Source: a virus | Length of the DNA: 31,666 bases | Strand: one strand, 5' to 3' | IMG/VR virus record: IMGVR_UViG_3300025137_000164 | Span: 1-31,666 of that record | Shown here: positions 4,270-28,495 of the stretch, piece by piece | Layout: every line of letters begins with the position of its first letter | Numbering within the stretch: position 1 is the stretch's first letter | Made by a program: the position numbers and the translations under genes | Notes under the pieces: generated by a model | Databases searched by the model: none | Seen by the model: the letters and a program-made list of their open reading frames with translations, nothing else | Told to the model about the DNA's origin: nothing

Positions 4270-4271
4270 TT

Positions 4272-4706
4272 ATGGCTGTTGATCCAAGAATGATGCCTCA
4301 AGGCGCACCCCCAATGACAGATCCAATGGGAGGAGGTCGAACACCACCCCCAATGCCTGACCCTATGATGGCAGGAGCAACGCCTCCTCCACCAATGGAA
4401 GGTGGTAATATCCCTCCAAGTGCAAAAGAAATGCCTCCAGAGGCTCAGGCGACGTTAATGCGCCCTTCTCAAGAGATCCAAGCGGTGCTTTTAGCAAGGC
4501 TTTCTTCTTTATCTGAAGATGAGCTAAAAATGCTAGATCAAGTCATTACACCTGAAGTGATTAATGTTGTGGTTAAGTTTTTGCCAGAGCTAGGCGAAAT
4601 TATTCAAGCGGTACAAGATATGTCACCAGATGGCACAATGCGAGGAATGAGCGAACCAGTTGCAGAAGCACCAATGCCAGAAAGTGCGATGGGTGGATTG
4701 GGATAA
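4272..4706 (+). CDS. Proline/methionine-rich hypothetical virion-cassette protein
   Basis: This encodes 144 aa. Residues 1-60 are low complexity, rich in Pro, Met and Gly (PPMTDPMGGGRTPPPMPDP), and likely disordered. Residues 65-115 form a compact helical region (SQEIQAVLLARLSSL, then VINVVVKFLPELGEII). The tail is again Met/Pro-rich. The start has a strong AAAGGAG site 6 nt upstream. The layout resembles small assembly or chaperone-like proteins coded among phage ejection proteins, but I recognise no family. It directly follows the candidate promoter at 4224 and precedes two structural proteins. Confidence 0.6.
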   Translation: MAVDPRMMPQGAPPMTDPMGGGRTPPPMPDPMMAGATPPPPMEGGNIPPSAKEMPPEAQATLMRPSQEIQAVLLARLSSLSEDELKMLDQVITPEVINVVVKFLPELGEIIQAVQDMSPDGTMRGMSEPVAEAPMPESAMGGLG

Positions 4707-4710
4707 TACG

Positions 4711-5697
4711 ATGCCTAAACTTTTTGAACAAACTTACGACACATTGCCTACTGCCGAAAGTGTAATTACTGGCACATCAATTCCAACATGGATGAGCGCA
4801 GCAGGTAAGACACTTGCAGAACAGGCGTTAGCTTTGGCAGGATCTGATTATCCGCAATACATGGGAGCAAGACGACCAACTTACGACGGAGACACTCTGA
4901 CCGCTGACGAACGAGCTGGCATGGAAATGTTGCGAGCGAATGCAGGAGATACAAGCTATCTTGATGCAGCTTATGAAGCAGCGCAAGACATGGGTTCAGA
5001 GATGTTTACAGGTCAAGATTACAGCACCCTTGTCGGTGAACCGATGACTATGGAGCAGATGCAGCCATTCCTTGATATATATCAACAAAGTGTTGACCCT
5101 GCGATTGCAGAAATCCAAAAGCAAATAGAACGTAATCAAATAGCCAATCGAGCTAACGCTGCTCGGTCAGGAGCTTTTGGTGGATCTAGGCTTGGCATCC
5201 AAGAAGGTCAAACCTATGGTGAAGGCATGGATGCAATGGCACAAACGAGAGCGCAAGCTGCTAGGGAAGGCTTAGAGTTTGGCGCAGCACAGTCCGAAAG
5301 AGACCGACAAGCGCGTTTCCAAGCGAACACAGCGGGTTTAAATGCGTATGAATCGAGAGAGGCAGCGAGGCAACGAAGGGCGCAAGAGCTTCAATCTTAT
5401 GTTCCTTTGTCTCAAGACTTAACCGAATCACAAGCAGGAAATTTAATTGGAATAGGGGAAGCCAGAAGAAACATAGACCGAGAAGGTTATGACTTAGCCT
5501 TTGCTGATTACCTTGATCAACGAAATTTTCCGTATGAGCAATTGAATTATGCGACTGGGATTCTTGAAGGTGTTCCTTACAACGCACAAAATTATAGCTA
5601 TGCCACTGGGATGCAAAATGTTCCACAATCTTCCATATTTGGGACGATGATTGGTGGTCTTGGTACGGCAGCAAGTGCCTATTTTACAGGAAAATAG
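4711..5697 (+). CDS. Putative structural protein with long helical middle (internal virion or tail protein)
   Basis: This encodes 328 aa from ATG 4711, 4 nt after the previous stop; an upstream ATG at 4660 lies in the preceding gene and is less likely. The middle (about residues 125-235) is a long Ala/Arg/Gln-rich helix with coiled-coil character (DPAIAEIQKQIERNQIANRA, then QTRAQAAREGLEFGAAQSER). The C-terminal part carries FPYEQLNYATGILEGVPY, a phrase I associate with phage virion proteins, and ends in a Gly-rich hydrophobic segment (IFGTMIGGLGTAASAYFTG) that could insert in a membrane. Together with its neighbours this suggests a DNA-ejection complex. It is not a convincing capsid protein. 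Confidence 0.6.
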   Translation: MPKLFEQTYDTLPTAESVITGTSIPTWMSAAGKTLAEQALALAGSDYPQYMGARRPTYDGDTLTADERAGMEMLRANAGDTSYLDAAYEAAQDMGSEMFTGQDYSTLVGEPMTMEQMQPFLDIYQQSVDPAIAEIQKQIERNQIANRANAARSGAFGGSRLGIQEGQTYGEGMDAMAQTRAQAAREGLEFGAAQSERDRQARFQANTAGLNAYESREAARQRRAQELQSYVPLSQDLTESQAGNLIGIGEARRNIDREGYDLAFADYLDQRNFPYEQLNYATGILEGVPYNAQNYSYATGMQNVPQSSIFGTMIGGLGTAASAYFTGK

Positions 5698-5700
5698 CTA

Positions 5701-6939
5701 ATGGTTGAGACTGCATTACAAGCGCAAGATCCTTTGATTACAAGCGATAAATCAACTGGTTTGCTTGATCTTTTAGCAAACGTAAATCTTTCTGAATACG
5801 GAACAGATCAAGCAAGTCCGTATCTTGGTTTAGATCCTGAAAATCGCCGATTATTTCAAAATTTAATTGGCAATGGTAAAGAATCTAGCACTAAAGAAGC
5901 TATAACTGGAATTGATCCCAAGCAATATTTAGAAAATGGAGTCAGCGTTAAGGATTTTTCTAGCCTTAAAATGAATGACATATCAAGTTTGCTTGGAGGC
6001 AAGCCAAAAAAACTTTCTGGTGCTGAAAAATCTTTGTTATTTTTTCTTGGGATGGCACAAAACGCATCAAAACCCGGTTCTACTCTTGGCGGGTCTCTTA
6101 CAGCAGGAACAACTGTACTTGGTACAGGGATGTTAAAAAGAGTACAAGACATAAGAAAATACGACAAAGAGCTTCCATTAAAAACGCTTCAGGTATCAAA
6201 TCTTTTAAGTAAGCAAGAATCCGAGAGAAGAAAAGAAAGGGGTACTTTTAGGAAACAATGGTTAGACTCACAAGAAACTAAAGACATGAAAAAAGCAATT
6301 TTTGATTATAGTCGGCTAAGAGAAGCTGCTGCTGTCAATCCAGACAATCCTTTGGCAAGAGGCGTTGGAGACTTGGCATTGGTGTTTAACTTTATGAAGT
6401 TGTTAGACCCCGGCTCTGTTGTCCGAGAGTCTGAGTTTAGAGCTGCTGCTGGAGCAGGTGCGCTTGGTCAACAGATTAAAAATTTTGTTGACAAACCTAT
6501 TAGTGGTGCTTTATTTACCCCAGAAGTTAGAGCAGATTTTGTACAAAAAGGAACAAACTTTTTAAAAGGCAGGGGTCAAATTTACGATGACCTTTACAAT
6601 CAAACAAAACAAATTGCATCAAGCGAAGGTTTCCGAAAAAACGAAATTGACACTGTTGTGCCGTATACAGATTGGAAAAAAAATTCGTTAATCAAATACG
6701 GTGATTACAAAGATGAACAGGAAGAATTCGAGCAGCTTGAGAAAGACGCAGCACAACAAATAAACTTTACCGCTAAAGACAAAGAACTTTATCGTTTATA
6801 TGTAGAAAATATTTCAAGCCACCCTAGGATAGATGATATAAATAAAATTTTAAAGCAAGAAAAACCTCCTAGAAATTATTACACATTAACTTTAGATGAA
6901 AAAATGGGGCTTTTAAGAGCCGTAGAGCAAGCAAGATAA
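5701..6939 (+). CDS. Putative internal virion protein (412 aa)
   Basis: A mostly helical 412-aa protein. Residues 100-145 are hydrophobic and Gly/Ser-rich (SLLFFLGMAQNASKPGSTLG), followed by basic coiled-coil-like helices (residues 155-200). A block GDLALVFNFMKLLDPGSVVR followed by ESEF (about residues 222-245) is one I associate with phage internal proteins. The C-terminal 120 residues are charged and Lys-rich. No enzyme motif is visible. It lies between two other virion-type genes with gaps of 3 and 1 nt, so they are probably one transcript. The gene is AT-rich (about one third G+C in a hand-counted stretch). Confidence 0.6.
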   Translation: MVETALQAQDPLITSDKSTGLLDLLANVNLSEYGTDQASPYLGLDPENRRLFQNLIGNGKESSTKEAITGIDPKQYLENGVSVKDFSSLKMNDISSLLGGKPKKLSGAEKSLLFFLGMAQNASKPGSTLGGSLTAGTTVLGTGMLKRVQDIRKYDKELPLKTLQVSNLLSKQESERRKERGTFRKQWLDSQETKDMKKAIFDYSRLREAAAVNPDNPLARGVGDLALVFNFMKLLDPGSVVRESEFRAAAGAGALGQQIKNFVDKPISGALFTPEVRADFVQKGTNFLKGRGQIYDDLYNQTKQIASSEGFRKNEIDTVVPYTDWKKNSLIKYGDYKDEQEEFEQLEKDAAQQINFTAKDKELYRLYVENISSHPRIDDINKILKQEKPPRNYYTLTLDEKMGLLRAVEQAR

Positions 6940-9132: not shown

Positions 9133-9501
9133 ATGGCTTATGTAAGCAAAGAAAGAAAAGCAGCAGTTGTCCCAAACATCAAAAAGGTACTTAAAAAGTA
9201 CGGAGTTAAAGGAACTGTTAAAGTTTTACATCACGCGACACTTTGTGTGACGCTCAGAAAAATACCAGCTGGTTTGTTTCCAGAAAATCAAACCGAAAAA
9301 GAAAGCCATCGAGATGTCAATGTTTATCACATCGACACTCACTATCAAGATCGTGCAAGAGATTTCTTGAGCGAGCTTCTTGACGCTATGAAAGGCGAAG
9401 AATGGTATGACCGTTCAGATGCTCAATACGATCATTTTGACACGGCTTGGTACAACTCTATTCGCATTGGCGAATGGAACAAAGCTCCTGAGCTAGTTTG
9501 A
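9133..9501 (+). CDS. Conserved phage early protein of unknown function
   Basis: A 122-aa protein with the family pattern AYVSKERKAAVVPNIKKVLK, a short beta segment, then DVNVYHIDTHYQDRARDFL, and finally WYDRSDAQYDHFDTAWYNS. I recognise it as a widespread phage and prophage family without an established function. It is the first gene behind the promoter at 9061, with a consensus-like AGAAAGGAAA site, so high early expression is expected. First-expressed genes of this size are often host-takeover or anti-defence proteins, but nothing in the sequence proves that. Its stop overlaps the next start (TGATG). Confidence 0.8.
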   Translation: MAYVSKERKAAVVPNIKKVLKKYGVKGTVKVLHHATLCVTLRKIPAGLFPENQTEKESHRDVNVYHIDTHYQDRARDFLSELLDAMKGEEWYDRSDAQYDHFDTAWYNSIRIGEWNKAPELV

Positions 9502-9731
9502 TGTTTTACGAAGTTGAAGTTAAAGTTCGGAATGGTTTCCCTTGCACTGTGAAATTCAGTGCAGGGGTTAACCCACCCGAACCAGACGTTGGTATTTTTT
9601 CGTCGGTTGAGTACGAAGGAATATACACGATTAAAGGTGAACCAGCCGAGTGGCTTGATTTGGATGACCACGATTGGTTTTTGATCAACGACGCAATCGA
9701 CGATTATTGTTTGCAGTGGGGTATAACATAA
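9501..9731 (+). CDS. Small acidic hypothetical protein (76 aa)
   Basis: Starts at ATG 9501, which overlaps the preceding stop as TGATG; TTG 9498 would add one residue and is less likely. The N-terminal half has two or three beta strands (FYEVEVKVRNGFPCTVKFSA), and the C-terminal half is strongly acidic (EWLDLDDHDWFLINDAIDDY). The acidic surface could mimic DNA or bind a basic partner, which is speculation. The family is not recognised. The stop overlaps the helicase start (TAATG), so it is co-translated with the genes on both sides. Confidence 0.7.
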   Translation: MFYEVEVKVRNGFPCTVKFSAGVNPPEPDVGIFSSVEYEGIYTIKGEPAEWLDLDDHDWFLINDAIDDYCLQWGIT

Positions 9732-11437
9732 TGTTTGTTCGCAAGTATTCGGCAAAATATTTGGTGCTATCTGGCATTGAAAATTCAGCCGAGAATTTTA
9801 GGCAACTATCAGAGATTCTTAGTTACAAGAAATGGGAAGGTCGTGACCTAGTGTTCGACCCAACGGGTTCTGCCATCAAAGTTCTGATGCGTTACTATCC
9901 CGATGCAATCTGGGATCAACCGTCTTCTGAAGTTTTAGACAAATATTTAAAGTCGTTAGAGGATGCTAAAAAGATAAAAAACTTTTCGGATTACACCGAC
10001 GATTTTAAGTTTAAAACAAAGCCATTTGAGCATCAGAAGAAAGCTTTTTACATGAGCAGAGAACTCGACAGTTTTGCTTTATTCATGGAGCAAGGTACAG
10101 GCAAGACAAAAGTTGCAATTGATTTGGCAGCCCACGCTTATGCAAATGGCAAGATCAGTACGCTTGTTGTCATTGCGCCAAACGGGGTACATAGAAACTG
10201 GTTACAAGAAATCACATTACATATGCCAGAATATATCGAGCATCAAAAGATCCATTACTCATCGGGGATGGGAAAGAAAAGGAAAGCTGAGTTTGAGTCG
10301 GTGCTTCAAGCAAAAGACTGTTTGAAGATATTTACATTTAACGTCGAAGCTTTTGCGACGGTAGCAGGAGCAAGATGGTTGGCTCAGATTGTGTTAGTCA
10401 ACAAGACTATGATGGTGGTCGATGAATCTACTAGAATCAAAAATCACGGTGCAAAGCGCACCAAGGTCATTACCAAGTTTGGCAAAGATCCAAACGTGGT
10501 CAAGAAATTAATTCTTACTGGGACACCGATTACAAAAGGTTGCGAGGACCTGTATTCTCAGTTTAAATTTTTAGACCCAATGATCTTAGGCTACGAGTCG
10601 TTTTATTCTTTTAAGAATCGGTACTGCGTTATGGGTGGTTACGAAGGTCGGCAGGTTATCAGTTACAAGAATACGGAAGAACTTTCTGATGCAGTCGATG
10701 GCTTTAGTTTTCGAGTGCTTAAAAAAGATTGCTTGGACTTACCCGACAAAATCTATCAACGACACACTTTTGATTTGTCAGTAAAAGAACGGCAAGTTTA
10801 TCGAGAACTTAAAACTAACTTGACGGCAGAACTCGACGGGGAGGTGTTGGCTGCGCCAGAAGCAATTACCAACATGCTTAGGTTGCAACAAATATCTGGT
10901 GGTTGGTTTCCGAGCGAATCGCCTCGGAAGATTGAAGAGACCCCATCGAGAATAAAAGCACTGAAAGATGTATTACAAAACATATCATGTAAGACAATTA
11001 TCTGGGCTAGATTTCGTGCCGATATCAAAATGATACAAGAGTTACTTGGTGACAAAGCAGTCAGTTATTATGGCGCAGTGTCGAGCGACGACCGTGTAGA
11101 CAACGTCGAGCGTTTTATTAGCGACCCCAAGGTTCGATACTTCATTGGTCAGCCAGCATCTGGCGGTATTGGTTTGACCTTGAACTCAAAAATTAAAAAC
11201 GATCCTGTGGCTTACGTCATTTACTATTCTAACTCGTTTGACCTAGAGCATCGACTTCAGTCGGAGGATAGGTGTCATCGGATTGGCACAGAAACCAACG
11301 TGACGTACATTGATTTACAGGCACTAAAAACTGTAGACAATAGAATAATTACCGCGTTGCGGAAGAAAAAGTCTCTTGCAGATTTAATTACCCAAGACCC
11401 CAAGTCAATTTTTATGGAGGAAGACGACAATGAGTGA
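9731..11437 (+). CDS. Snf2-type superfamily 2 helicase/translocase
   Basis: A 568-aa ATP-dependent DNA translocase. The start is ATG 9731, coupled as TAATG. Helicase motifs from that start: HQ at 101-102, Walker A QGTGKT at 121-126, DEST (in place of DEAH) at 231-234, TGTP at 263-266, motif V around 474-483 (PASGGIGLTL) and motif VI QSEDRCHRIG at 510-519. The last resembles the QAEDRAHRIGQ signature of Snf2 proteins. Residues 1-95 form a short N-terminal extension. Phage members of this group are usually encoded beside replication and recombination genes. Here the VRR-NUC nuclease follows with an 8-nt overlap, suggesting the two act together on branched or stalled DNA. Confidence 0.92.
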   Translation: MFVRKYSAKYLVLSGIENSAENFRQLSEILSYKKWEGRDLVFDPTGSAIKVLMRYYPDAIWDQPSSEVLDKYLKSLEDAKKIKNFSDYTDDFKFKTKPFEHQKKAFYMSRELDSFALFMEQGTGKTKVAIDLAAHAYANGKISTLVVIAPNGVHRNWLQEITLHMPEYIEHQKIHYSSGMGKKRKAEFESVLQAKDCLKIFTFNVEAFATVAGARWLAQIVLVNKTMMVVDESTRIKNHGAKRTKVITKFGKDPNVVKKLILTGTPITKGCEDLYSQFKFLDPMILGYESFYSFKNRYCVMGGYEGRQVISYKNTEELSDAVDGFSFRVLKKDCLDLPDKIYQRHTFDLSVKERQVYRELKTNLTAELDGEVLAAPEAITNMLRLQQISGGWFPSESPRKIEETPSRIKALKDVLQNISCKTIIWARFRADIKMIQELLGDKAVSYYGAVSSDDRVDNVERFISDPKVRYFIGQPASGGIGLTLNSKIKNDPVAYVIYYSNSFDLEHRLQSEDRCHRIGTETNVTYIDLQALKTVDNRIITALRKKKSLADLITQDPKSIFMEEDDNE

Positions 11438-11858
11438 GCAAAATTTTTGGGTATTGCTGAGAAAGAATCTTCCGCTAAAGCTTTATCGCGTCGAAAATAA
11501 AGTTTCGAGAGGGATGCCTGACGTTCATTTTGCGTCCAAGGAAAAGCTTGGGATGTCAGGCTGGGTTGAGTTGAAGTATTTGCCAGAGTTTCCCAAACGT
11601 CAAATGACTGTGGGGTTGAAAAAACATCAAGCGATGTGGCTCAAGGAATATGCAAATTACGGTCAGTCTTGGCTCTTGGTCAGGATCGGTTCAAACTGGA
11701 CTGGTTTATTTTTTGGTAGCATTGCAGAAGAGATTTTTGCCAGACCAACCAAAGAAAAGTTCTGTAACCTAGCAACGTGGAGCAAGCGTGGCAATTTGAC
11801 AAAAGACGACTGGAAAAAGCTCTCAGAAGTCATGTGCTTGGGTTGTGAGTTTGGGTGA
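11430..11858 (+). CDS. VRR-NUC-type nuclease of the PD-(D/E)xK fold
   Basis: A 142-aa protein with the nuclease pattern spread over residues 22-67: E22 in RVENKVSRG, GMPDVHF with D31, WVELKY with E47 and K49, and Q67 in GLKKHQAMWL. Proteins with this arrangement are small endonucleases that cut branched DNA such as Holliday junctions, or act as flap nucleases. The C-terminal half has a short beta segment (SWLLVRIGSNWTGLFFG) and a helical tail. The start overlaps the helicase by 8 nt. The stop codon lies inside a perfect 7-bp inverted repeat. The specific DNA substrate is inference. Confidence 0.85.
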   Translation: MSEQNFWVLLRKNLPLKLYRVENKVSRGMPDVHFASKEKLGMSGWVELKYLPEFPKRQMTVGLKKHQAMWLKEYANYGQSWLLVRIGSNWTGLFFGSIAEEIFARPTKEKFCNLATWSKRGNLTKDDWKKLSEVMCLGCEFG

Positions 11859-11869
11859 TACAATCACCC
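11853..11869. terminator. Perfect inverted repeat between convergent operons
   Basis: GGGTGAT (11853-11859), a 3-nt loop ACA, then ATCACCC (11863-11869). The stop codon of the nuclease gene lies within the first arm. It sits where the rightward early operon meets the leftward replication operon, whose last stop is at 11906. There is no T-run on either side, so a classic intrinsic terminator is not certain; it may act as an mRNA 3'-end stabiliser. Confidence 0.5.
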
Positions 11870-11905
11870 TACCCCCTTCCAAAGAATCGCTTAGAGAGCC
11901 TCTGG

Positions 11906-14584
11906 TTAGTCCAATTTTCTAATTTTGTCGATAAAAACTCGACGATAGCCTTCTTTAAGAGAACCGCGCACTAAGAACCAATCTCCAATCCCACCTATCA
12001 TTTTCGACGGGGAGATGCTTGCTGTGATCTGTCCAGTATCATCAGCCAACACCAAGTCCAAATTGCTCTTTCCTGCTTTTTTATCAAGCAGTTTTCCAAA
12101 GAATACTCTTACCCCTTCGCTGAAATTAACAATGTCAGTTATCTCAGATTTAATTCTATACTTTTCAGGTTCTTTCCTGATATGCCCGAAACGACGTTCG
12201 CATTCAAAGATATCGTCATAAGGTGTCTTGCCCTCTGCTAAAAACTTTTCTTGCCTTGGGGACAATGCTTGGTTGTTTTTACGACGCTCGACAATCTCCT
12301 GAGCCATCTTCATTCCAACCCCTTTGATATTCATCAAGCCACCGATTAACTCGCCGTCTTGGACCGTCCAGTTCTCCATCGACTTCTCACTATCAAACTT
12401 CTTAAAAGTAAGACCTTTGCCTTTTATTTCTCTTAGTAAGGCAATTGCCTGTTCGTCATCTTTTGAATTCCGTAGGCAAGCAGCAGCAAACTCTAACGGG
12501 TATCGAGACTTCAGTACGCACGACCAATAGCTAACCATCGCATAAGCAATCGCATGGCTTCGATTAAAAGCATACGCTCCCATCGTATTCATCTGTTGCC
12601 ATATGGTCATGGCTTCGTGTTCTTGCAAACCGTTTTCCATCGCGCCTTTCTTAAACTTTTCATAGAAGCTATCAAAAAAACTTTTGCCGATAGACTTGCT
12701 CATCGCCTTTCTAAGTGCTGACACATCAGCCCATGACAGCTTTCCAATCTCTCTGCCTGCAAGCATCACCTGCTCTTGGTAGATAAAAATTCCTTTGGTG
12801 ACCCCTAGAATTTCTTCAGTCATCGGTAAGAAAGACACTTCACTTTCCCCAGTCTGGCGACGGATGTACTCTTGCGCTCCACCGCTTGACAACGGACCGG
12901 GTCTGGCGAGCGAAGTCAACGCTGACATATCCTCAAAATTAGCAACGTGCATCTGCTTACATAGCCCTTGCAACGCACCACCCTCAAACTGAAAGATGCC
13001 TGCGTATCGTTCCTCATTCAAAAGATCAAACGCTTGCTTGTCGTCGAGTGGAAACTCAGTTAGTTTTTCCCGACTCCAATCAATCTGCTCTAGCACATCG
13101 TTTAGAACTGACAAGGTTCTCAATCCCAGAGCGTCAATCTTCAATAGGTTCAGCTTCTCTGCATCACGCTTATCAATCTGCGCTGAGTCGCTGGTAACAG
13201 AGCAATACTTACTGACGTTCTCCTCGGTGATAATAATCCCCGCTGCGTGGACTCCAGAGTGTCTCGCATGGTTTTCAAACTGAGATGCAATCTCCATGTC
13301 TGGGTGTCTCATCAACAAATGTTTGCCAGATACCAACGTCTTAAAAGAGTCTTCAATGCAGTTGTTACAGCGTGGGTCTCCATCGGGTCTGTCTATTATG
13401 GAGTTCTTAAACTCTGACACCTCGTTTAATCCGATGCCCAAGCCTTTGCTGACTTCAATAATACTGGAGCGAGCCTTGTATCTAGATACTGTTCCCAAGT
13501 GTGCAACCTTCTCATCACCCCACTTTTCTCGCAAATAATCAAACACTAACTCTCGTCTGTCGTCTGGAAAATCAATATCAATATCTGGCGCGTCGTCACG
13601 GCTGACATCAATGAATCTCTCAAATAACAAGTTGTGTTTTATTGGATCAACTTCTGTGATGCCAAGGCAATAGCAAATCAGCGAGCCTGCTGAACTTCCC
13701 CTAGCAGGTCCGACCAGCATAATTGTCTTTGCGTACTTTACCATGTCAGCAATTACTAAAAAGTAATCCTCAAAACCTTTATTAGATATCTGCTCTAGCT
13801 CATGCTCAAACCTAGCGGTATATTCCTCGCTCGACAAATCAATGTTTCTTTGCTTCGCAGACTCTAAACAGATGTCCTTAAAACTTTTCTTCTTAGGAAA
13901 ACTAATCATCCTAGCCACTGGCAATGACGCATCACATTGCTCTGCAATCATCTTGATGTTCTCAAACGCTGCGTCTGTCACCCAAGCTTGCGACTTTCTA
14001 AGCTCACGTTCGTTCAACAAGTGCATTGGTGCTTGTCGTCTGACTTTATTTGATCCAACCAAAAGCTCATATGCTTGCCTGTTTTCTTCTTTTGGAAAAT
14101 AGTTATCTGAAGTAGCAACCATCTGGAACTTGGTGTCTCTTTTAAAAGACGCTGGATTTACTTCCACAAACAAAGTTTCTTTCTTCATCGCAGGAAGCAA
14201 GCCCCACTCTGGCTTAGAACCAGATAAAATAATAACGTCGTTGCTTATATCGAACAGGTCTTCGTAGGCTAATCGGTTATTTTGTTTAGCACTTTTGCTG
14301 ACCAACCCGTAAATCTCTTCAAGTCCAGAGTTGTTCTTTGCCAAGAAACTCATGTCGTTAACTTCTTGCTTCTTTTGAAAGTTAGTGTCAATGACAAAAG
14401 GTATCTCAACGCCAAAGATAGGTCTCTTGCTTGAATCCTTGCAAGCCTTAGCAAACACCGTATGACCCCAAGTCCCCGTGTCACAAATACCAAGAGTGTC
14501 TTCATCAATACAAGCAATGACATCGCTGACTTTACCAAAAGCTTTTCTAAACGAATACTCAGTTCTGCATTTGAGATTAATCAT
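11906..14584 (-). CDS. dnaE: Family C replicative DNA polymerase (DNA polymerase III alpha / DnaE-like)
   Basis: This 892-aa polymerase would synthesise the phage genome. It begins with a PHP-like domain (1 to about 215), then the palm with GPARGSSAGS (292-301), the catalytic PDIDIDF (D334, D336) and KIDALGLRTL (third Asp, D484). Next come IFQFEGGALQGL, LARPGPLSSG and FIYQEQVMLAGREIGKLS, then AFNRSHAIAYAMVSY. A helix-hairpin-helix region follows (GGLMNIKGVGMKMAQEI, about 748-764) and an OB-like domain (about 825-892). It is shorter than E. coli DnaE (1160 aa) and lacks the tau-binding tail. The PHP metal ligands look lost: the usual HxH is KCR. I see no QxxLF-type clamp motif after the fingers. 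The start overlaps the methyltransferase stop by ATGA. Confidence 0.93.
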   Translation of the reverse strand: MINLKCRTEYSFRKAFGKVSDVIACIDEDTLGICDTGTWGHTVFAKACKDSSKRPIFGVEIPFVIDTNFQKKQEVNDMSFLAKNNSGLEEIYGLVSKSAKQNNRLAYEDLFDISNDVIILSGSKPEWGLLPAMKKETLFVEVNPASFKRDTKFQMVATSDNYFPKEENRQAYELLVGSNKVRRQAPMHLLNERELRKSQAWVTDAAFENIKMIAEQCDASLPVARMISFPKKKSFKDICLESAKQRNIDLSSEEYTARFEHELEQISNKGFEDYFLVIADMVKYAKTIMLVGPARGSSAGSLICYCLGITEVDPIKHNLLFERFIDVSRDDAPDIDIDFPDDRRELVFDYLREKWGDEKVAHLGTVSRYKARSSIIEVSKGLGIGLNEVSEFKNSIIDRPDGDPRCNNCIEDSFKTLVSGKHLLMRHPDMEIASQFENHARHSGVHAAGIIITEENVSKYCSVTSDSAQIDKRDAEKLNLLKIDALGLRTLSVLNDVLEQIDWSREKLTEFPLDDKQAFDLLNEERYAGIFQFEGGALQGLCKQMHVANFEDMSALTSLARPGPLSSGGAQEYIRRQTGESEVSFLPMTEEILGVTKGIFIYQEQVMLAGREIGKLSWADVSALRKAMSKSIGKSFFDSFYEKFKKGAMENGLQEHEAMTIWQQMNTMGAYAFNRSHAIAYAMVSYWSCVLKSRYPLEFAAACLRNSKDDEQAIALLREIKGKGLTFKKFDSEKSMENWTVQDGELIGGLMNIKGVGMKMAQEIVERRKNNQALSPRQEKFLAEGKTPYDDIFECERRFGHIRKEPEKYRIKSEITDIVNFSEGVRVFFGKLLDKKAGKSNLDLVLADDTGQITASISPSKMIGGIGDWFLVRGSLKEGYRRVFIDKIRKLD

Positions 14585-15597
14585 GTAAATAAATCCATTT
14601 GCTTATCTTCTAAAGAAATGTCTTTAAAATTTAAACTTTTTCTTTTTCTAAAAATAACAATTGGCTCTGCATTCGCTCCCTCTTTTTTCCGCGAAGTCAT
14701 TTCGTAACCAATCACTCCAACCAAATTACACTCTGGTAATTCTTTTAAACAGTGTTCAATCATCGGCATACATATCCTGTTGTAAGTATGATTTGCATAA
14801 CAATCTGAAATGTTAATAGCCATAAAGCCTCCCTGCTGTAAAGACAACCAAGAATGTCCTAGCATGGGAAATAAAAAGCCATCTAACCAATCTTCAAACT
14901 TTTTAAATTTTTTGTGTGACTGTAAATCTCCCTGATATTTCTCAATCTTAAAATACGGAGGAGATGTAAAAACCAAATCAAAAAAGTTATTTTGAGGGCA
15001 GCATACCTCGCTTCCTTTGTACTCAAAAAAAGTTTCCGTGGCACTTTCATACGCTCTTTGCTGCAAAGAATAAGAACTAAAAACCATTGGGTTTACATCT
15101 CGACAATAATATAAATCGCAATTTTCCGTTGCCAAGGCTGCCGAAAGCCGATCACCCCAGCCACCGCAAGGATCATAAATCTTTCGCGCATCAAACAACT
15201 CATAGATACATTTAGCAGCGGAAGGTCTAAACTGACTAGGGATATAACCCCTCATAGTTAAAGCGGATTTATGACTGTCTTTATAATAAATAGAATTTTC
15301 TATGTTTTTCTTTAACTTTCTATCATGCCAAGCTCTTATTGGGCTTGGCGAATTTAAACTATCACATGCCATTCTTGCCTGCCAATGAAAACAATTTGAA
15401 CTTTTATTTCCTACGTTAGATTTTGAAATTACATAATCGAAACAATAAGATTCGTCAATTAAACTTCTGCTTTTCCACTTTTTCCTTATGAACAAGTCTT
15501 TAAAAGATTTTTCTTTTAGCAAGTTAAAATCAATCAATCCATCTTCTTCGCTTGGCTTGCATAAAGGAAACAACGGGTTTCTTTTCTCAAAATTCAT
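14581..15597 (-). CDS. DNA (N4-cytosine or N6-adenine) methyltransferase
   Basis: A 338-aa protein with an S-adenosylmethionine site DPCGGWGDR (142-150, motif I) preceding the catalytic TSPPYF (211-216, motif IV), which is typical of amino-methyltransferases. A later strand GGFMAINISD fits the same fold. Residues 1-115 form an N-terminal domain unlike common modification enzymes; YIPSQFRPSAAKCIYEL just before motif I is probably the motif X region. No restriction partner is visible nearby, so a solitary phage enzyme that protects its DNA from host restriction is likely. Base composition is odd: sampled stretches have about 31% G+C against about 47% in the helicase and polymerase on either side, which suggests recent acquisition. 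The target base and site are unknown. Confidence 0.82.
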   Translation of the reverse strand: MNFEKRNPLFPLCKPSEEDGLIDFNLLKEKSFKDLFIRKKWKSRSLIDESYCFDYVISKSNVGNKSSNCFHWQARMACDSLNSPSPIRAWHDRKLKKNIENSIYYKDSHKSALTMRGYIPSQFRPSAAKCIYELFDARKIYDPCGGWGDRLSAALATENCDLYYCRDVNPMVFSSYSLQQRAYESATETFFEYKGSEVCCPQNNFFDLVFTSPPYFKIEKYQGDLQSHKKFKKFEDWLDGFLFPMLGHSWLSLQQGGFMAINISDCYANHTYNRICMPMIEHCLKELPECNLVGVIGYEMTSRKKEGANAEPIVIFRKRKSLNFKDISLEDKQMDLFT

Positions 15598-15598
15598 T

Positions 15599-17062
15599 TT
15601 AAATTTGAAAACTCCGCAAACCTTTTGGTCGGACCAAGAACAAGTTCTCTTTGCAGCGTGTTAAGCCAACATACCAAACCCTGTTTTCTTCATCGCCACC
15701 CAAAGCCTCAAAAGACTTCCTACCACAATCAGTCAACAACACCACGTTGTCTGCTTCGCCACCCTTAGACTGGTGGATTGTGCTGATGGTTATTCTCGGC
15801 GATGCGCCAAAGACTTGGTTGTTTCGTAAACAGCTTCTCAGATATTCTCTTTCGTCTGGTGGGATCAACCGTAACATATCCATCCAGTCAAGCTTGAGCG
15901 CATCTTTTGGCAAGCCAAAGCTTTCGATGCCATAGTCAGCAGACTTTTTTAACCGATGGTTGATGTTCAAAAACTTCAACAAGTTCTTTGCTTCGTGCAT
16001 AGAAATACGCTCACCCTTTCTCATGTTCTCCCAAGACTCAATCGCTTTGGTTTCATTAGTCGTCGTTGAACTTTTGCCATTGTAAGTATAAGCGTAACCC
16101 TGTTGACGAACGACTTTGACCAACCGACTTAACAGGTATTTACTACGTGCCATCAATAACCAAGTGCCTTGCTTTGATAAGTCAATTTGATTTTCATCAG
16201 CAATGTAATCAACCTTGCCTTCCTCGGTCCTTGGTTTGTATGGCTTGTCGTATCTGTTTTTAATCCTGCCCAATACATCAAGCGCAAGTCGATGTACGCT
16301 TCTTGGGATTCGATAGCTTGTTGATAAGACTTGCTTCTCGTCAGCTTTCATATTTAAAAAGAATGGGAGGTCACTCCCTGCCCATTGGAATATTGACTGG
16401 TCATCATCGCCAGCTAAGTAAACTTCCTTCGCATTTTGTGATAGCTCAATCGCTACTTTGAATTGCAAGGTACTCAAGTCCTGAGCCTCGTCAAAGATTG
16501 CAACGTCTATGTCAAGCGCACCATGCCATGCTTGCAGCATGTCAGTAAAATCATACAACCCATTCTCAACCTTGTAGGCTTTAAGTGCTGCTGAGTATTG
16601 CTTGACCGCGTGAAGCGTTAAATCGTCAGTTGCAGTCATATGATACTGCTCTTCTAACGACCGCATCCCAATACGAGCCAACGCTTCAATCCGAGAACAC
16701 TTGTCTCCTAAACCTTCGCCAGTGTGAACCCCTAAGTCTTCGTCGTAAATACCCCTGAACTCAACACCCAGTGCTTTGCCAAATGCTCGGTAATGTTTGT
16801 TGGTCATTACCTCATCGCGTTTTATTTTCATCTCACGAAACGCAAGAGAGTGCAATGTCCTAAAATATGGGAACATTTCTTCTGGATAGCCAAACTTTTC
16901 AATCGCTCGGTTTCGCGCTTCAATGGTTGCTTTGCGAGTAAAACTAAAATACCCGATGCGATGTGGCTCAATACCTTTGTCTATGCAACTTTCGACGATG
17001 TCGATTAGTGTGGTTGTTTTACCAGTTCCTGGCGGTCCGAGCAACAACTTCACCTTTCTCAT
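15599..17062 (-). CDS. UvrD/Rep-like superfamily 1 DNA helicase
   Basis: A 487-aa ATP-dependent 3'-5' type helicase. Motifs: Walker A GPPGTGKTT (9-17), Ia SFTRKATIEAR (40-50), TLHSLAF (69-75), Walker B IFDEAQD (189-195), motif III LAGDDDQSIFQWAGS (216-230), a motif IV-like STSYRIP (247-253), motif V ITISTIHQSKGGEADNVVLL (424-443) and motif VI WYVGLTRCKENL (463-474). It is shorter than UvrD (about 720 aa), with reduced 1B and 2B subdomains. It is probably the replicative or repair helicase of this phage, since no DnaB-type helicase is present. Start and upstream stop overlap as ATGA, so it is co-translated with the 64-aa protein. Confidence 0.92.
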   Translation of the reverse strand: MRKVKLLLGPPGTGKTTTLIDIVESCIDKGIEPHRIGYFSFTRKATIEARNRAIEKFGYPEEMFPYFRTLHSLAFREMKIKRDEVMTNKHYRAFGKALGVEFRGIYDEDLGVHTGEGLGDKCSRIEALARIGMRSLEEQYHMTATDDLTLHAVKQYSAALKAYKVENGLYDFTDMLQAWHGALDIDVAIFDEAQDLSTLQFKVAIELSQNAKEVYLAGDDDQSIFQWAGSDLPFFLNMKADEKQVLSTSYRIPRSVHRLALDVLGRIKNRYDKPYKPRTEEGKVDYIADENQIDLSKQGTWLLMARSKYLLSRLVKVVRQQGYAYTYNGKSSTTTNETKAIESWENMRKGERISMHEAKNLLKFLNINHRLKKSADYGIESFGLPKDALKLDWMDMLRLIPPDEREYLRSCLRNNQVFGASPRITISTIHQSKGGEADNVVLLTDCGRKSFEALGGDEENRVWYVGLTRCKENLFLVRPKGLRSFQI

Positions 17063-17253
17063 TTCTTGTTAACCACCAAATAGAGAAAAGGCTTCTCACA
17101 AGTCTTAACCCCTTGGACAATGTCTAAAAAATCAGACCGCTTAAAGTCTGGGTCTGCATTCTCAAACACCCTCATCATCTGATCAAACTGCCAAACGCTA
17201 ATTTCAAACCTTTCCTCAGCAATCGCTTTCGCTAATTCTTCGTAACTTATCAT
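17059..17253 (-). CDS. Small hypothetical protein between primase and helicase (64 aa)
   Basis: This encodes 64 aa, mainly helical and acidic (ISYEELAKAIAEERFEISVW), with a C-terminal strand (KPFLYLVVNKK). The start directly abuts the primase stop (no spacer), and its own stop overlaps the helicase start (ATGA). This exact packing between two replication enzymes suggests a cofactor or adaptor, but I recognise no family. Confidence 0.7.
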   Translation of the reverse strand: MISYEELAKAIAEERFEISVWQFDQMMRVFENADPDFKRSDFLDIVQGVKTCEKPFLYLVVNKK

Positions 17254-18774
17254 TTAAAAATCCTCCGTCAAGTTTGTAGGTATCTCAAGGTCCTCGTCCT
17301 GAAAATATTCAGGAGCAGGAACTGACCAAACTTTAATTGGCTTGCCCTTGATTCTAAATGTTTTTCGGTCGCCACCCAACGTCCTAAGCCACGACCAAAC
17401 TTGATGTTGGTTGGTGTACCTGAAACGCCGAGCCTCTAAGTAGATAAACAAGTCTTCGGACCTGAAGTAAACTTTTGCTTCATCGACATCTTGAAATGGC
17501 TTCCCATTCATGATCTCGTCACGGTGTCTTGCTTGAACTTTTCCTGTTAAAAATGCGTCGAGTGCTTTCTCAAACTGACCTTCGGGAGAAGCGTCATCTG
17601 GATCAATCACCACCTCCACCGACTGTAACAAGGTATTGATTCTTTGTTCCCAAGCTTGTGCAGGCATTGCGCTCGGACACTTGTTTAGCTTCTCAACACA
17701 GATCTTTTGTAACTGCCGTTGATCTAAAAGTTGTGCGGTGGTTATCTCAATTCGCTCACCTTGTATCTCAATGTACCACCTGACCGAGCTTTTGTTCTCA
17801 GTCTCATACTTTGTGATTGCATCAATCTCAAGACTCGCACCACCACCAAATCCTCCAATGCCAAACTCACGTTTCATGCACTTGGACTTTTCGCAATAGT
17901 TACAAATCGGTGATTGCTTACAAGTGTAAGCATAATCTTTCTTGGCAACAGACTTAGCTAACGCATTGACCTCACCACTTGGTAGCGGAGAGTCTAATGA
18001 CTCGTAGTTGAACTTCATCAAGTCTTCTTGCCAATCATCGGGATTCTTTTTGCGGTAGTACACACCGACGTTAAAAAGCGAGATGTTCCTACCGCCTTCA
18101 GGAAAACCAATTGTTGAAATGTGTTGCAAACATGGCGGTCCGTCCTCAAAAGCTGAGTCCAAATCCACGGTAAAATCTTCTAGTTGTTCTGGCGTGACTC
18201 GTTTTGACTTAGCAAGGTCAACAAACTCGGCAAGGTTTAACTTGTTGCCGTGGTGGATTGCATATCTCTCGGACTTATCACCCGCCCAGTAACACAGGTT
18301 AATCCAGTTGCCTCGGTCTTTATCGTTTGCTCTCGATGTTTGCTTAGGGAATATTTCTACGCCACCATAGCCCAGCGACGCTGCAAACTCATTCAGCTTT
18401 AGCACCATATCTCTTGCACCAATCGCAGGTTCGCAGAACAAATACAGATGTGCGCCACCTGACTTACTTCGACACATTACAAGCGGAGTGTCTCGGACTT
18501 TTTTCTCCAAAGACTCAAGCGTTTCTGAAAGCTTCACCTCGCCACGGATATCAATATCAATCACACCAAAGTTACACTTATTGTCTTGCTTTAATGGAAT
18601 AATACCGAGTATGTACTCTCCACCTGACAAATGTTTGTTGAAGTGTTCTTCGGTAGCAGGTTCTGAGATCGTGACGGCACGACCAGAAACTTTACCATCC
18701 TGTTCTTCTTTCTGGACTCGAAATTGTCCGTGGGCTAATTCATAACCCGAGAATAATTCAATAAAATCTTGCAC
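17254..18774 (-). CDS. Archaeo-eukaryotic-type (AEP) primase or primase-polymerase with a four-cysteine motif
   Basis: A 506-aa protein that should make primers for the family C polymerase. AEP motifs: FGVIDIDIRG with metal ligands D73 and D75, SGGAHLYLF with H109, and VEIFPK with E140. After the catalytic domain, residues 285-299 carry C-x5-C-x2-C-x4-C (C285, C291, C294, C299) followed by REFGIG, a layout seen in phage and TOTE-type primases and expected to bind zinc or an iron-sulfur cluster. The C-terminal 190 residues have a helical region and a possible winged-helix segment (YTNQHQVWSWLRTLGG). The start is GTG, fixed by AGAAAGGAAA at 18779-18788. No helicase domain is fused; helicases are encoded separately. 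Confidence 0.87.
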   Translation of the reverse strand: MQDFIELFSGYELAHGQFRVQKEEQDGKVSGRAVTISEPATEEHFNKHLSGGEYILGIIPLKQDNKCNFGVIDIDIRGEVKLSETLESLEKKVRDTPLVMCRSKSGGAHLYLFCEPAIGARDMVLKLNEFAASLGYGGVEIFPKQTSRANDKDRGNWINLCYWAGDKSERYAIHHGNKLNLAEFVDLAKSKRVTPEQLEDFTVDLDSAFEDGPPCLQHISTIGFPEGGRNISLFNVGVYYRKKNPDDWQEDLMKFNYESLDSPLPSGEVNALAKSVAKKDYAYTCKQSPICNYCEKSKCMKREFGIGGFGGGASLEIDAITKYETENKSSVRWYIEIQGERIEITTAQLLDQRQLQKICVEKLNKCPSAMPAQAWEQRINTLLQSVEVVIDPDDASPEGQFEKALDAFLTGKVQARHRDEIMNGKPFQDVDEAKVYFRSEDLFIYLEARRFRYTNQHQVWSWLRTLGGDRKTFRIKGKPIKVWSVPAPEYFQDEDLEIPTNLTEDF

Positions 18775-18858
18775 GATATTTCCTTTCTGAAAGATGCCGA
18801 GGAACGGAGATTACACAACCTACAACCACTTATGATATCCCCGCCCCCCAGCCGTGAC

Positions 18859-19638
18859 TTACATTACGTCTTCGGAAGCTTTAGCAGCACCTTGCTTTAT
18901 ATCCTCGCGTAAAGCTTTTGCTTTCATGTAAATCTCACCACCGTTCGGCAAGTTGGCAACCACTCCACCAGAGTTTGCGTCGAACATTGGAGCAACTTTA
19001 TAAATGAAACTCGTTCCCTCATCCCACTTTTTAGGTTGAGTCGTCAGGGTATACGCATTCCAAAAACTGGCAGGATTAAATGTCTCACCTTTATTTTTTG
19101 GATGCGGAACTCTGAGCCTTGCCATCATCATGTTAAATTGTTTCGATGAAGTTAAGTTAGTCTTGCTCATACCTAACACCGCAGGATTCGCACCTGCGTC
19201 ATCGACTAACAGCCCATAATAATTGCCAGTCTCTCGGATCAAGTTGCCGTTGTCGACAGGAAACTCATACGTTTTACCAACGTGCTTGCCACCATCCACC
19301 ACAGATAAATCTGTACCGTGGTCACGCTCAAATTTCTTGCCGTCGTTTCCATACTCGACCCAAGTTCGTTCATAATACGCAGGAACAAAAGTTATGCCCT
19401 TTTCTCCATCGTAGATTGTTTGAGATGCAGACTCTAAAATCTTACCTGCCTCAGCCCCTTCGATGTAATCGTCGCCACTTTTTTGTACGGCGTTAGACAT
19501 CTGTTGTAATAAGTAGACCCGTGGTATTTGAAAACTGTCTGCGGTCATGTTCTCCGCAGCAGTGTCAGCGTCCTCAAGGAACACGCTGTTATCAAAAGCC
19601 ACAACATCTGTTTTCTCTTTTTTCGCTATTTCATTCAT
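18859..19638 (-). CDS. Conserved phage replication-associated protein, possibly ssDNA-binding
   Basis: A 259-aa protein. I chose ATG 19638 (MNEIAKKEKTDVV) because AAGGTG lies 6 nt upstream; an in-frame start farther up would overlap the previous gene. Typical blocks are QIPRVYLLQQMSNAVQKSGD, EGAEAGKILESASQTIYDGE, FVPAYYERTWVEY and SSKQFNMMMARLRVP. I know this as a family encoded by many phages next to primase or recombination genes. A single-stranded DNA-binding role fits the mixed beta content and position and would fill an otherwise missing function, but that is inference. The gap to the primase gene (84 nt) contains only the primase ribosome binding site. Confidence 0.7.
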   Translation of the reverse strand: MNEIAKKEKTDVVAFDNSVFLEDADTAAENMTADSFQIPRVYLLQQMSNAVQKSGDDYIEGAEAGKILESASQTIYDGEKGITFVPAYYERTWVEYGNDGKKFERDHGTDLSVVDGGKHVGKTYEFPVDNGNLIRETGNYYGLLVDDAGANPAVLGMSKTNLTSSKQFNMMMARLRVPHPKNKGETFNPASFWNAYTLTTQPKKWDEGTSFIYKVAPMFDANSGGVVANLPNGGEIYMKAKALREDIKQGAAKASEDVM

Positions 19639-19648
19639 ATCATTCACC

Positions 19649-20236
19649 TTATTTAATAATAGTTTTTTTGCCTTCATGTACATTTAGAAGGTCGATTGGT
19701 ACATATTTCCCATCCGCTAGGCGTTCTTTTACGAAGGCTTCAAGCGTTTTGGGATGTACATTAACAGTTCGTTTTGGATTCAAACCTGAACCTTCAAGCT
19801 CTTTGCAAAGCTCGTTGACTTCAGAGTCCTGACCCTTCCCGAACTGGATCTCGACAGCGTTCTTAATCAGCGAGTCAGCGTTTGCTTCTCTCAACCAATT
19901 TAGAGCGTCGTCTTTTTGTTGGCGAAGTATTCCCTGTCTGTCACCTTTAGCACGTTCAATCGTGCCATCAGCAGGAATATTTGCGCGAACAAAATCTTTC
20001 ACGATAAGTTGCTTGCCGTCAGATAGATCCCAAGAAGTTTGCCCAACACTCGCTAAAGCTTCAGGCAATTCTTGTTCGGACAATATCCGCAGTTCTGCTT
20101 TCTTATCTTTCAAATTCTTTTCTAACAACACAACCTCGGCTTCCAGATCTTGTAACCGATTTGCCATCTCGTTTATTTCATTCAGGTCCGTGACATCTGC
20201 ATTGGCATCAGCCAGATAATCTATGTTGGAGTTCAT
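19649..20236 (-). CDS. Conserved phage protein with N-terminal coiled coil, unknown function
   Basis: This encodes 195 aa from ATG 20236, which overlaps the preceding stop as ATGA; an upstream in-frame ATG would overlap further and is less likely. Residues about 15-60 form a coiled coil (LQDLEAEVVLLEKNLKDKKA). The rest carries the family pattern LPEALASVGQTSWDLSDG, ALNWLREANADSLIKNAVEI, VHPKTLEAFVKERL and YVPIDLLNVHEGKKTIIK. I recognise it as common in phages, usually adjacent to the gene that follows here, so the two proteins probably work together in replication or recombination. It does not carry the motifs of a nuclease or recombinase. Confidence 0.7.
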   Translation of the reverse strand: MNSNIDYLADANADVTDLNEINEMANRLQDLEAEVVLLEKNLKDKKAELRILSEQELPEALASVGQTSWDLSDGKQLIVKDFVRANIPADGTIERAKGDRQGILRQQKDDALNWLREANADSLIKNAVEIQFGKGQDSEVNELCKELEGSGLNPKRTVNVHPKTLEAFVKERLADGKYVPIDLLNVHEGKKTIIK

Positions 20237-20589
20237 GACCGCATCTCCAAAGTACATGGCATGTACCAACCTTTACGTCGGTCACGATGCGTATCAAAGT
20301 TTCTCTCCCATCGCAAGATACTTACTTTAGGGGAAACTTGTGACGCTGCCATGCAAGCAATCATCACTGCGGTTGGATCTCCACCGCCTGCCCACAGCAA
20401 ATAGTCATCTTCACTGAAGTCTTTTAATATCTTCTTCGCTTTGTGAATTGCGGGAGCTGGTGAAAACTGTGGTTGCTCGGAAGGCTCAAAGATAATCTCC
20501 AACTCACCATACTTGGCAGCATCAGATAAATCAGGAGTCCATCCAAACTTGTTTTGTGTCGGTCGTTGTACGACGTAAACGGTAGCCAT
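20233..20589 (-). CDS. Conserved small phage early protein, unknown function
   Basis: This encodes 118 aa. It starts ATVYVVQRPTQNKFGW, has a central FSPAPAIHKAKKILKDFSED, then DDYLLWAGGGDPTAVMIACM, and ends with a strand (VSILRWERNFD). This pattern (TVYVVQ at the start, DDYLL.GDP..I..A in the middle) is widespread in phage early regions; no function is established to my knowledge. AGAAAGGAAA at 20596-20605 gives it a strong start. Its stop overlaps the next gene as ATGA. It may be the first efficiently translated gene of the leftward operon. Confidence 0.75.
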   Translation of the reverse strand: MATVYVVQRPTQNKFGWTPDLSDAAKYGELEIIFEPSEQPQFSPAPAIHKAKKILKDFSEDDYLLWAGGGDPTAVMIACMAASQVSPKVSILRWERNFDTHRDRRKGWYMPCTLEMRS

Positions 20590-20654
20590 TTTATTTTTCC
20601 TTTCTAACTTTCTTGAGGTCGAACTAAAAAGTATGCGCCTCGTTCTTCAAACTG

Positions 20655-20894
20655 TCAACAAAAAAATTGTTCTGTCTCCTCGTCGTCGAACGTGCTGGAT
20701 GCAAGAGCTATACTTATTACCGCTAACATTGCCTCCATCGTTGGTGCTTCATCCCGCAAGTCTCGCAAGACAACGGCAAGTACCCCTGCATAAATTGCGC
20801 CTTTGCTTACGTCATCGTTTTCAAATAGCGCATCAAGCATCGTCTCGGTTGCTTCTTTCGCAGCTTGTAATTCAAAATCCATTTGATTAATCAT
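20655..20894 (-). CDS. First gene of the leftward operon, small acidic helical protein (79 aa)
   Basis: The predicted product is 79 aa, rich in Ala and acidic residues (LQAAKEATETMLDALFENDD) with a hydrophobic central helix (GAIYAGVLAVVLRDL). No Shine-Dalgarno site precedes either ATG 20894 or the second ATG at 20882. A TATAAT box at 20902-20907 on the minus strand would place transcription start right at the first ATG, so the message may be leaderless. The family is not recognised. Its position at the head of the replication operon suggests an early regulator, which is speculation. Confidence 0.55.
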   Translation of the reverse strand: MINQMDFELQAAKEATETMLDALFENDDVSKGAIYAGVLAVVLRDLRDEAPTMEAMLAVISIALASSTFDDEETEQFFC

Positions 20895-20901
20895 GTTTTG
20901 T

Positions 20902-20907
20902 ATTATA
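20902..20907 (-). promoter_or_regulatory. Candidate -10 box of the leftward replication operon
   Basis: On the minus strand TATAAT occupies 20907-20902, with an A/T-rich stretch but no good -35 hexamer at 16-18 bp (the position falls in a run of T). Transcription would begin near 20895. The weak -35 suggests activator dependence or help from the adjacent A-tract. Confidence 0.45.
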
Positions 20908-20956
20908 GAGGAATATATTTAAGAAAAAAAATAAATTTTTAAATCTCATAAAGTTC

Positions 20957-21067
20957 GGTTACGCGGTTACAAACACAAAAAAATAATTAAAAAAGAATGG
21001 GTTATGAATGTTACCGTTTGCCAATTCTAGCGGTAACCGTTACCAAAGTTTGGTAACATTGGGTTAC
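20957..21067. repeat. Cluster of seven GGTWAC sites; candidate replication origin or operator
   Basis: GGTTAC occurs at 20957-20962, 20965-20970 and 21062-21067. GGTAAC or its complement GTTACC occurs at 21010-21015, 21032-21037, 21039-21044 and 21052-21057. The pair at 21032-21044 forms a 13-nt perfect palindrome around one central base, and 21039-21057 is a second inverted repeat with a 7-nt spacer. An AT-rich tract (20911-20945) lies on one side. The cluster separates the divergent operons, so it could be an iteron-type origin, a binding array for an early regulator, or both. Confidence 0.6.
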
Positions 21068-21118
21068 TTTTGTTTGAGAAGCGTTGTAAGTTATTGATAA
21101 TAAAGGTAAACAAAAGAG

Positions 21119-21146
21119 TTGCATCTTTCTGTGAGATAGGTATAAT
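21119..21146 (+). promoter_or_regulatory. Sigma70-like promoter for the rightward genes from 21190
   Basis: TTGCAT (21119-21124), a 16-bp spacer, then TATAAT (21141-21146). The -10 lies 49 nt before ATG 21190, against 50 nt in the promoter at 9061-9088. The leaders share a TGTTGAA element and the stretch CTGAGAAAGGAAAGTAA. There is no extended -10 here. It may also feed the late genes downstream, since I see no clear promoter before the terminase genes. Confidence 0.75.
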
Positions 21147-21189
21147 TAATGGTGTTGAAGATATTCATTAACTGAGAAAGGAAAGTAAA

Positions 21190-21735
21190 ATGGAAAACGT
21201 AGTAAGAAAATACGCGGTAAAACTTGAAGAAGAAATTGTCAATCAAGAAGACCCTGATTATTTGCATGGTGCAACTAATTACAAAGGTTATGATTGGTTG
21301 GACACCAAGGTCATATCAACTGGTTCTGAGTTCGACACCAAGGAAGATGCAATTGCTTTCGCAAAAGATTGCATGAGCAAGGTGAAGGAAGAAGACCGAC
21401 GTAACTATGAAATTGAAGAAGTCAATTATGGTTATGCAAATTGCTACGGATATACTGATGTCAATCCGTTTGAGATAGTAAGAATTGTTTCAGACAAAAC
21501 GATTGAAGTCAGAGAGATGAAGGCTAAAGAATTACCTTGGAAGCGTGACTTTCATGCTGGCGGGTTCTTCGGTCACACTTCTAATCAAAGAGATCAAAAG
21601 TGGGAGATCACTAGCATCGAAGAAGCAACTCCTTTTAGGATTCGCAAAAGCAAATACGGTCAATGGAAATCTGCTGGGGGTAGTCGTTTCGGTTTAGCTG
21701 AAAAGCCTAGAAAGTTCTACGACTACAACTTCTAA
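21190..21735 (+). CDS. Conserved hypothetical early protein with a C-terminal phage domain
   Basis: This encodes 181 aa. The N-terminal half is charged and acidic (KLEEEIVNQEDPDYLHG) with a Tyr-rich stretch (YGYANCYGYTDVNPF). The C-terminal half (about 95-181) has a conserved-looking pattern: FEIVRIVSDKTIEVREM, then HAGGFFGHTSNQRDQKWEI, then a C-terminus ending in KFYDYNF. I recognise this half from phage and bacterial hypothetical proteins; it looks like a small beta domain, function unknown. It is the first gene behind the promoter at 21119 with a strong AGAAAGGAAA site. A GC-rich hairpin follows its stop. Confidence 0.7.
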   Translation: MENVVRKYAVKLEEEIVNQEDPDYLHGATNYKGYDWLDTKVISTGSEFDTKEDAIAFAKDCMSKVKEEDRRNYEIEEVNYGYANCYGYTDVNPFEIVRIVSDKTIEVREMKAKELPWKRDFHAGGFFGHTSNQRDQKWEITSIEEATPFRIRKSKYGQWKSAGGSRFGLAEKPRKFYDYNF

Positions 21736-21750
21736 CCTAGTATACTAAAC

Positions 21751-21766
21751 GGGGGCGCAAGCCCCC
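21751..21766 (+). other. Very stable GC hairpin with a GCAA tetraloop between two early genes
   Basis: GGGGGC (21751-21756), loop GCAA, then GCCCCC (21761-21766). A GNRA tetraloop closed by C-G makes this exceptionally stable as RNA. No T-run follows, so it is more likely an mRNA 3'-end protector, a processing site or a partial attenuator than a full terminator. It is followed 7 nt later by the ribosome binding site of the 21789 gene. Confidence 0.65.
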
Positions 21767-21788
21767 TCAATTAAGAAAGGAAAGTAAT

Positions 21789-22347: not shown

Positions 22348-22348
22348 C

Positions 22349-28494: not shown

Positions 28495-28495
28495 A

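Follow-up and report, generated by a model that had tools for sequence, protein, structure and literature searches.

How does a marine bacteriophage that encodes its own bacterial-type replicative polymerase copy its genome when the proofreading exonuclease that accompanies this enzyme in related phages is missing? The question is raised by a 31,666-nucleotide stretch of viral DNA (IMG/VR record IMGVR_UViG_3300025137_000164, positions 1 to 31,666; hereafter the window), in which a dnaE-like gene for a family C DNA polymerase occupies positions 11906..14584. The initial annotation, made from the sequence alone, had the coordinates right, with the correction that the gene sits on the minus strand (14584->11906). 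As developed below, comparative sequence evidence makes it probable that this enzyme belongs to what was once an alpha-epsilon phage replicase and now works without a phage-encoded proofreader.

The polymerase itself is intact. The open reading frame is uninterrupted, with zero internal stops, and its 892-residue product matches the phrog_405 profile (E=6.7e-234) and the Pfam domains DNA_pol3_alpha (1.1e-68), finger (1.3e-35) and PHP (4.8e-07, residues 4-122), which bears out the family assignment. The three palm aspartates that the initial annotation had called intact, D334 (13583-13585) and D336 (13577-13579) in the motif PDIDIDF and D484 (13133-13135) in LLKIDALGLR (together 13133..13585, minus strand), are invariant in two alignments, including that of 68 relatives. 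An AlphaFold2 (AF2) model built with 68 homologues is of high confidence (predicted local distance difference test, pLDDT, 91.4; predicted template modelling score, pTM, 0.87), and its best Foldseek matches in the PDB are the bacterial Pol III alpha subunits of M. tuberculosis (7pu7), T. aquaticus (2hpi/3e0d/4iqj) and E. coli (2hnh/5fkv). The chain begins with a PHP domain (residues 1-225; 13910..14584, minus strand) and contains a helix-hairpin-helix region (residues 726-775; 12260..12409, minus strand) that is seen in the model and matched by Pfam HHH_6 at residues 725-772 slightly under the cut-off. It ends with a five-stranded domain (residues 824-891; 11912..12115, minus strand), which matches Pol III alpha structures and OB proteins in Foldseek and which we interpret from the model as a shortened OB domain. 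No tau-binding C-terminal domain follows it; in both the model and the alignment with relatives the protein stops at residue 892, as had been noted before. PolC features are also absent, as judged from Pfam and AF2: there is no exonuclease insert in the PHP domain, and the OB-like domain is C-terminal rather than N-terminal.

The metal site of the PHP domain is dead. Only 2/9 ligands of the consensus HHDHEH[C/H]DH are kept (KRKTEVSDY), so that the loss reported in the initial annotation stands, and a check for intact ligands came out negative. Its presentation as a peculiarity of this phage does not stand: all ten cultured proteobacterial-phage relatives that we scored keep 0-2/9 ligands, E. 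coli keeps 4/9, and the full 9/9 are found in the outgroup phages Chill, Riggi, KidneyBean, Dauntless and MTATph1. Among the phages checked, the proteobacterial phages with a dead PHP site carry DnaQ and the actinophages with an intact one (Chill, KidneyBean and Dauntless) carry none, the exceptions being Bacillus phage Riggi, which has both, and MTATph1, which has a weak DnaQ-like match. The window lineage has neither an intact PHP site nor a DnaQ-like gene.

The absence of an exonuclease gene breaks a family rule, because relatives place a DEDDh (DnaQ/epsilon-like) gene directly upstream of dnaE, often with overlapping start and stop. This arrangement is present in 8/8 myovirus relatives inspected and in the podoviruses Ss1 and VA-RY-3 (10/10 cultured). 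A profile built from ten of the upstream proteins and run over the IMG/VR relatives detected the gene at 76/80 loci; of the other four, L036, L047 and L053 are truncated at contig ends, and L050 is a member of a second lineage without epsilon, described below. In a second scan, which partly overlaps the first, 66 loci carried the gene and every locus without it fell in one of two lineages, that of the window and the second one just mentioned. The relatives' epsilon proteins are about 180-200 residues long, and a DEDDh-like pattern is present in 152/155 of those detected, two of the remaining three being cut by contig ends. We also note that Ss1_30 (L007:26093-26662) and VA-RY-3_34 (L008:22509-23084), annotated as hypothetical proteins, are DEDDh epsilon-like exonucleases (RNase_T E 4e-23 for Ss1_30).

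In the window there are zero matches to PF00929 even at E<=10, in agreement with the earlier statement that no proofreading gene is coded there. The epsilon profile and/or PF00929 likewise found no match in the window, in G001-G004 or in the other window-lineage records, and PF00929 at E<=1 gave zero matches in 16 window-lineage or related records. The search was sensitive enough, since PF00929 recovers the epsilon gene in all 10 cultured relatives. This bears on the possibility that a proofreading exonuclease gene lies at another place in the genome or is too diverged to be recognised, for which there is room insofar as the window covers 31.7 kb out of a genome of roughly 53 kb and contains several small open reading frames without a family match. 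The remaining ~22 kb can, however, be tiled. Two contigs from one IMG sample, L208 (19.4 kb) and L209 (18.9 kb), share stretches with the window in which the proteins are about 89-100% identical; they supply genes for capsid, co-chaperonin, adaptor and tail-fibre-like proteins together with accessory genes, which brings the total to about 53 kb. CRP-901 (53,013), whose type of structural genes forms both ends of the window, is as large. This remainder is mostly structural, and neither contig contains a PF00929/DnaQ-like match. Given the clean searches and the tiling, we consider an exonuclease hidden elsewhere improbable, and we strongly infer, short of proof, that the individual virus lacks the gene. 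The tiling also revises the description of the window as a small podovirus-like genome, as it is a fragment of a larger one whose short-tail morphology is not established.

Where relatives have epsilon, the window has a DNA methyltransferase-like gene (14581..15597, minus strand; PF01555 E 1e-05, 26.1 bits, just below the cut-off of 26.7). Between the UvrD helicase gene and dnaE, different DNA-modification genes take turns in this slot from one phage to the next, even where the DnaE proteins share 94-98% identity: the slots of L211, L210 and L003 (2400-5187) hold Mom (PF25680 1.3e-38), or Dcm (PF00145 2.8e-46) with a SAM methyltransferase and an asparagine-synthase-like protein.

The second lineage without epsilon (L050/L235, L234 (=G035) and L236/L237/L240 (=G036)) has a DnaE of ~795 residues from which the OB domain is gone, and we refer to it as OB-less. 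Whether the two lineages lost epsilon independently depends on the gene consulted. In a DnaE tree of 41 rows they form one group (98/95) nested inside the epsilon-containing phages (100/99), and a separate DnaE tree also joins them (Shimodaira-Hasegawa approximate likelihood ratio test, SH-aLRT, 94), whereas trees of the primase, UvrD, SNF2 and VRR proteins keep them apart. Because of this conflict, either an epsilon-less dnaE was transferred from one lineage to the other, or there were two epsilon losses and the DnaE grouping is an artefact of long-stem attraction. Such attraction is possible because both DnaE stems are long, and approximately unbiased (AU) tests gave p=0.032 when the window lineage was kept outside and 0.245 when the OB-less lineage was. 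The matter is one of history and not of function, and the chances seem evenly balanced between two losses on the one hand and, on the other, a single ancestral loss common to both lineages or the transfer of an epsilon-less dnaE.

In both lineages DnaE has evolved faster. Root-to-tip distances are 0.95 for the window lineage and 0.87 for the OB-less lineage, versus 0.50+/-0.09 for epsilon-containing phages (about 1.8-1.9x), and those of the primase are level (1.42 and 1.55 versus 1.49), so the acceleration is specific to DnaE with respect to the primase. Within DnaE it is largest in the palm, at 3.5x and 3.3x, and smallest or near-smallest in the PHP domain, at about 1.6-1.8x; a relaxation localised to the PHP domain after epsilon loss was considered and rejected on this ground. 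As a correlation, the rate pattern is better matched by a reworked catalytic core than by a mutator acting across the genome. A lost partner gene and a faster-evolving dnaE might also be expected if dnaE were decaying and host Pol III replicated the phage, but three other contigs have the frame open over its full length, with proteins 94-97% identical, the catalytic residues are all invariant, the fold is predicted with high confidence and the gene is kept in a conserved replication module, and we regard decay as very improbable indeed.

The main rival is that the phage polymerase recruits host DnaQ (epsilon), so that proofreading continues and the phage's own epsilon gene has become dispensable. 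In E. coli, epsilon binds the PHP domain of alpha (PMC12926913, PMC3919608), and in the window polymerase this domain is full length in the AF2 model and is not the fastest-changing part. A convergence of the PHP domain toward that of E. coli alpha, taken as a proxy for the host, gave no clear signal, however: PHP identity to E. coli DnaE is 25% in the window lineage versus 24+/-3% in epsilon-containing phages, and slightly higher, at 30%, for the OB-less lineage. Moreover, the relatives' own epsilon proteins are so short that no host-type interface need persist. We therefore think recruitment of host epsilon unlikely, if still worth serious consideration.

Processivity poses a related question. 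No DnaN match was obtained in the window at E<=0.1, in line with the initial annotation; the lack of a phage clamp is not peculiar to this phage, as a beta clamp gene was found in 0/42 related records, while control genomes gave matches. The clamp-binding consensus is QL[S/D]LF, in which positions 1, 4 and 5 weigh most (PMC3919608), and between the helix-hairpin-helix region and the OB-like domain the window polymerase contains zero pentapeptides of this kind, as previously supposed. The nearest string, QEKLL/QEKFL (778-782), was rejected because it lies within a predicted helix (776-784 in the AF2 model) and is not conserved in Ss1, VA-RY-3, WFH or DP1. The OB-less DnaE proteins end differently, in QDRFL (L050/L235), QSSLF (L234) or QSRLL (L236/L237/L240), of which QSSLF fits the consensus and the other two fit it partially; no such C-terminal motif is found in the window lineage. 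In the L234 model the tail (787-795) is disordered (pLDDT<50), and the motif suggests that the OB-less tail docks on the host clamp. The clamp-like peptide is encoded in the C-terminal codons of the genes at L234:7001-9385, L236:5261-7663 and L050:2905-5307.

Taken together, these results lead us to favor a replicase that has outlived its proofreading partner. The window polymerase would be the phage's own replicase, a DnaE-type alpha working with the phage primase and helicases. Its ancestors would have formed an alpha-epsilon pair, and the DEDDh exonuclease encoded upstream was presumably the proofreader, because the PHP site was already dead. In the window lineage the epsilon gene would have been lost from its slot, where exchangeable DNA-modification genes now reside, and the polymerase core, the palm above all, would then have changed fast. 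Since the searches detected no phage clamp, the host would supply any help with processivity, and any editing would likewise be host-provided or dispensed with. We infer that the phage genome is copied without exonucleolytic proofreading of its own, with accuracy coming from base selection and host repair. A bolder version is possible but doubtful: in one or two lineages of dsDNA phages, a family C replicase may copy a ~50 kb genome without any proofreading exonuclease, the palm compensating and the C-terminus rebuilt, and in one lineage docked on the host clamp.

Several observations weigh against the loss of proofreading as we propose it. The UvrD and SNF2 helicases are also roughly 9-25% faster in the epsilon-less lineages, and because of this part of the rate excess is not specific to DnaE. 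The mutation spectrum gave no consistent signature, the two epsilon-less lineages deviating in opposite directions from the epsilon-containing phages (transition/transversion ratios of 4.0 on average in the window lineage, at 1.5-5% divergence, and 1.5 in the OB-less lineage, versus 2.8 for epsilon-containing pairs; the pairs are not independent). The genome of the exact window virus is incomplete, L208 and L209 being other individuals that meet inside the same gene over 76 bases at 87%, and a sequence search would miss an exonuclease of an unrelated fold.

The genes around dnaE form a replication module. On the minus strand are a UvrD-like helicase (15599..17062; PF00580 1.5e-24, phrog_1967 2.1e-75) and an archaeo-eukaryotic primase (AEP)-type primase (17254..18774; PF22548 2.9e-11, phrog_21866 3.2e-100), the latter 75-80% identical in many IMG/VR contigs and at most 38% identical in cultured phages. 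On the plus strand are two conserved partners of dnaE: an SNF2-type helicase (9674..11437; PF00176 7.6e-23, phrog_62 1.6e-114), which adjoins dnaE in relatives, and a VRR-Nuc-like small protein (11430..11858; phrog_2165 3.3e-20), whose homologues lie beside the SNF2 helicase in relatives and whose position in CRP-901 is taken by gp21, annotated as a VRR-nuclease. The window is mosaic, with CRP-901-type virion genes (835-6939, 23168-31470) and a replication module (9133-23146) shared with a different marine phage group, which is uncultured. Travelling with this module are three genes of the Pam3 gp34-, gp33- and gp32-like families (18859-20589; function unassigned), the first two of which have diverged far more strongly in the window lineage than in relatives. 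In the close relative L208, a cassette of CsgG (8e-47), an unknown gene, FecR (4e-11) and CHASE2/guanylate-cyclase (1e-22, 1e-18) lies beside structural genes (L208:13721-18150). No relative that would provide a link to a host was found among bacterial genome contigs.

Family C polymerases of bacterial type are already known from many phages, and what stands out here is a lineage without the epsilon partner; our literature search, of partial coverage, turned up no proofreading-free phage polymerases. A homologue of the window polymerase is contained in 1,322 phage records, and the podoviruses Ss1 (42 kb) and VA-RY-3 (40 kb) carry one at 37-38% identity, so that, contrary to the initial annotation, such an enzyme is not unusual in a small phage. 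Because relatives share them, the family C enzyme, the dead PHP site and the absent clamp are not peculiar to the window. The phrog_405 enzymes of Pbunavirus, Wifcevirus, Bcepfunavirus, Carpasinavirus, Myosmarvirus and Ss1/VA-RY-3 are of the same family at 37-40% identity, and these cultured phages also have a dead PHP site and no clamp gene found; in the myoviruses dnaE has as neighbours an SNF2 helicase gene and a gene for a small protein about as large as a VRR-nuclease. They differ in having the upstream DEDDh gene and a longer OB region, of which the window lineage has neither.

The virion module is shared with the Roseobacter phages CRP-901/CRP-902 (TerL about 76% and portal about 72% identical), although these replicate with a bifunctional primase-polymerase and no DnaE (PMC10149686), whereas the window has DnaE and a separate primase. 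With E. coli DnaE1 (Pol III alpha) the window polymerase has the domain order PHP-Pol3-HhH-OB in common, but it lacks the C-terminal domain and clamp motif; in a family C phylogeny comprising E. coli DnaE1 and phage enzymes it falls in a phage-specific clade, and it is encoded beside a phage primase and helicases. Bacterial DnaE3 lacks PHP ligands and detectable proofreading (PMC3919608), and the window polymerase, also without a PHP site and an identified exonuclease, resembles it by these features only. The OB-less lineage shares the absence of epsilon and the accelerated DnaE, and differs in lacking the OB domain and in its clamp-like tail. The closest comparison is with an uncultured marine sister clade (for example G043, G045 and G009; contigs of 51-55 kb), in which the primase is 75-80% and DnaE 57-60% identical and the order of the module is the same, but epsilon is present in nearly all uncut contigs and DnaE is about 927-937 residues long. 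Comparing such close relatives, some with epsilon and some without, offers a natural way to ask if a phage replicase can do without proofreading and in what ways a polymerase adapts to its loss.
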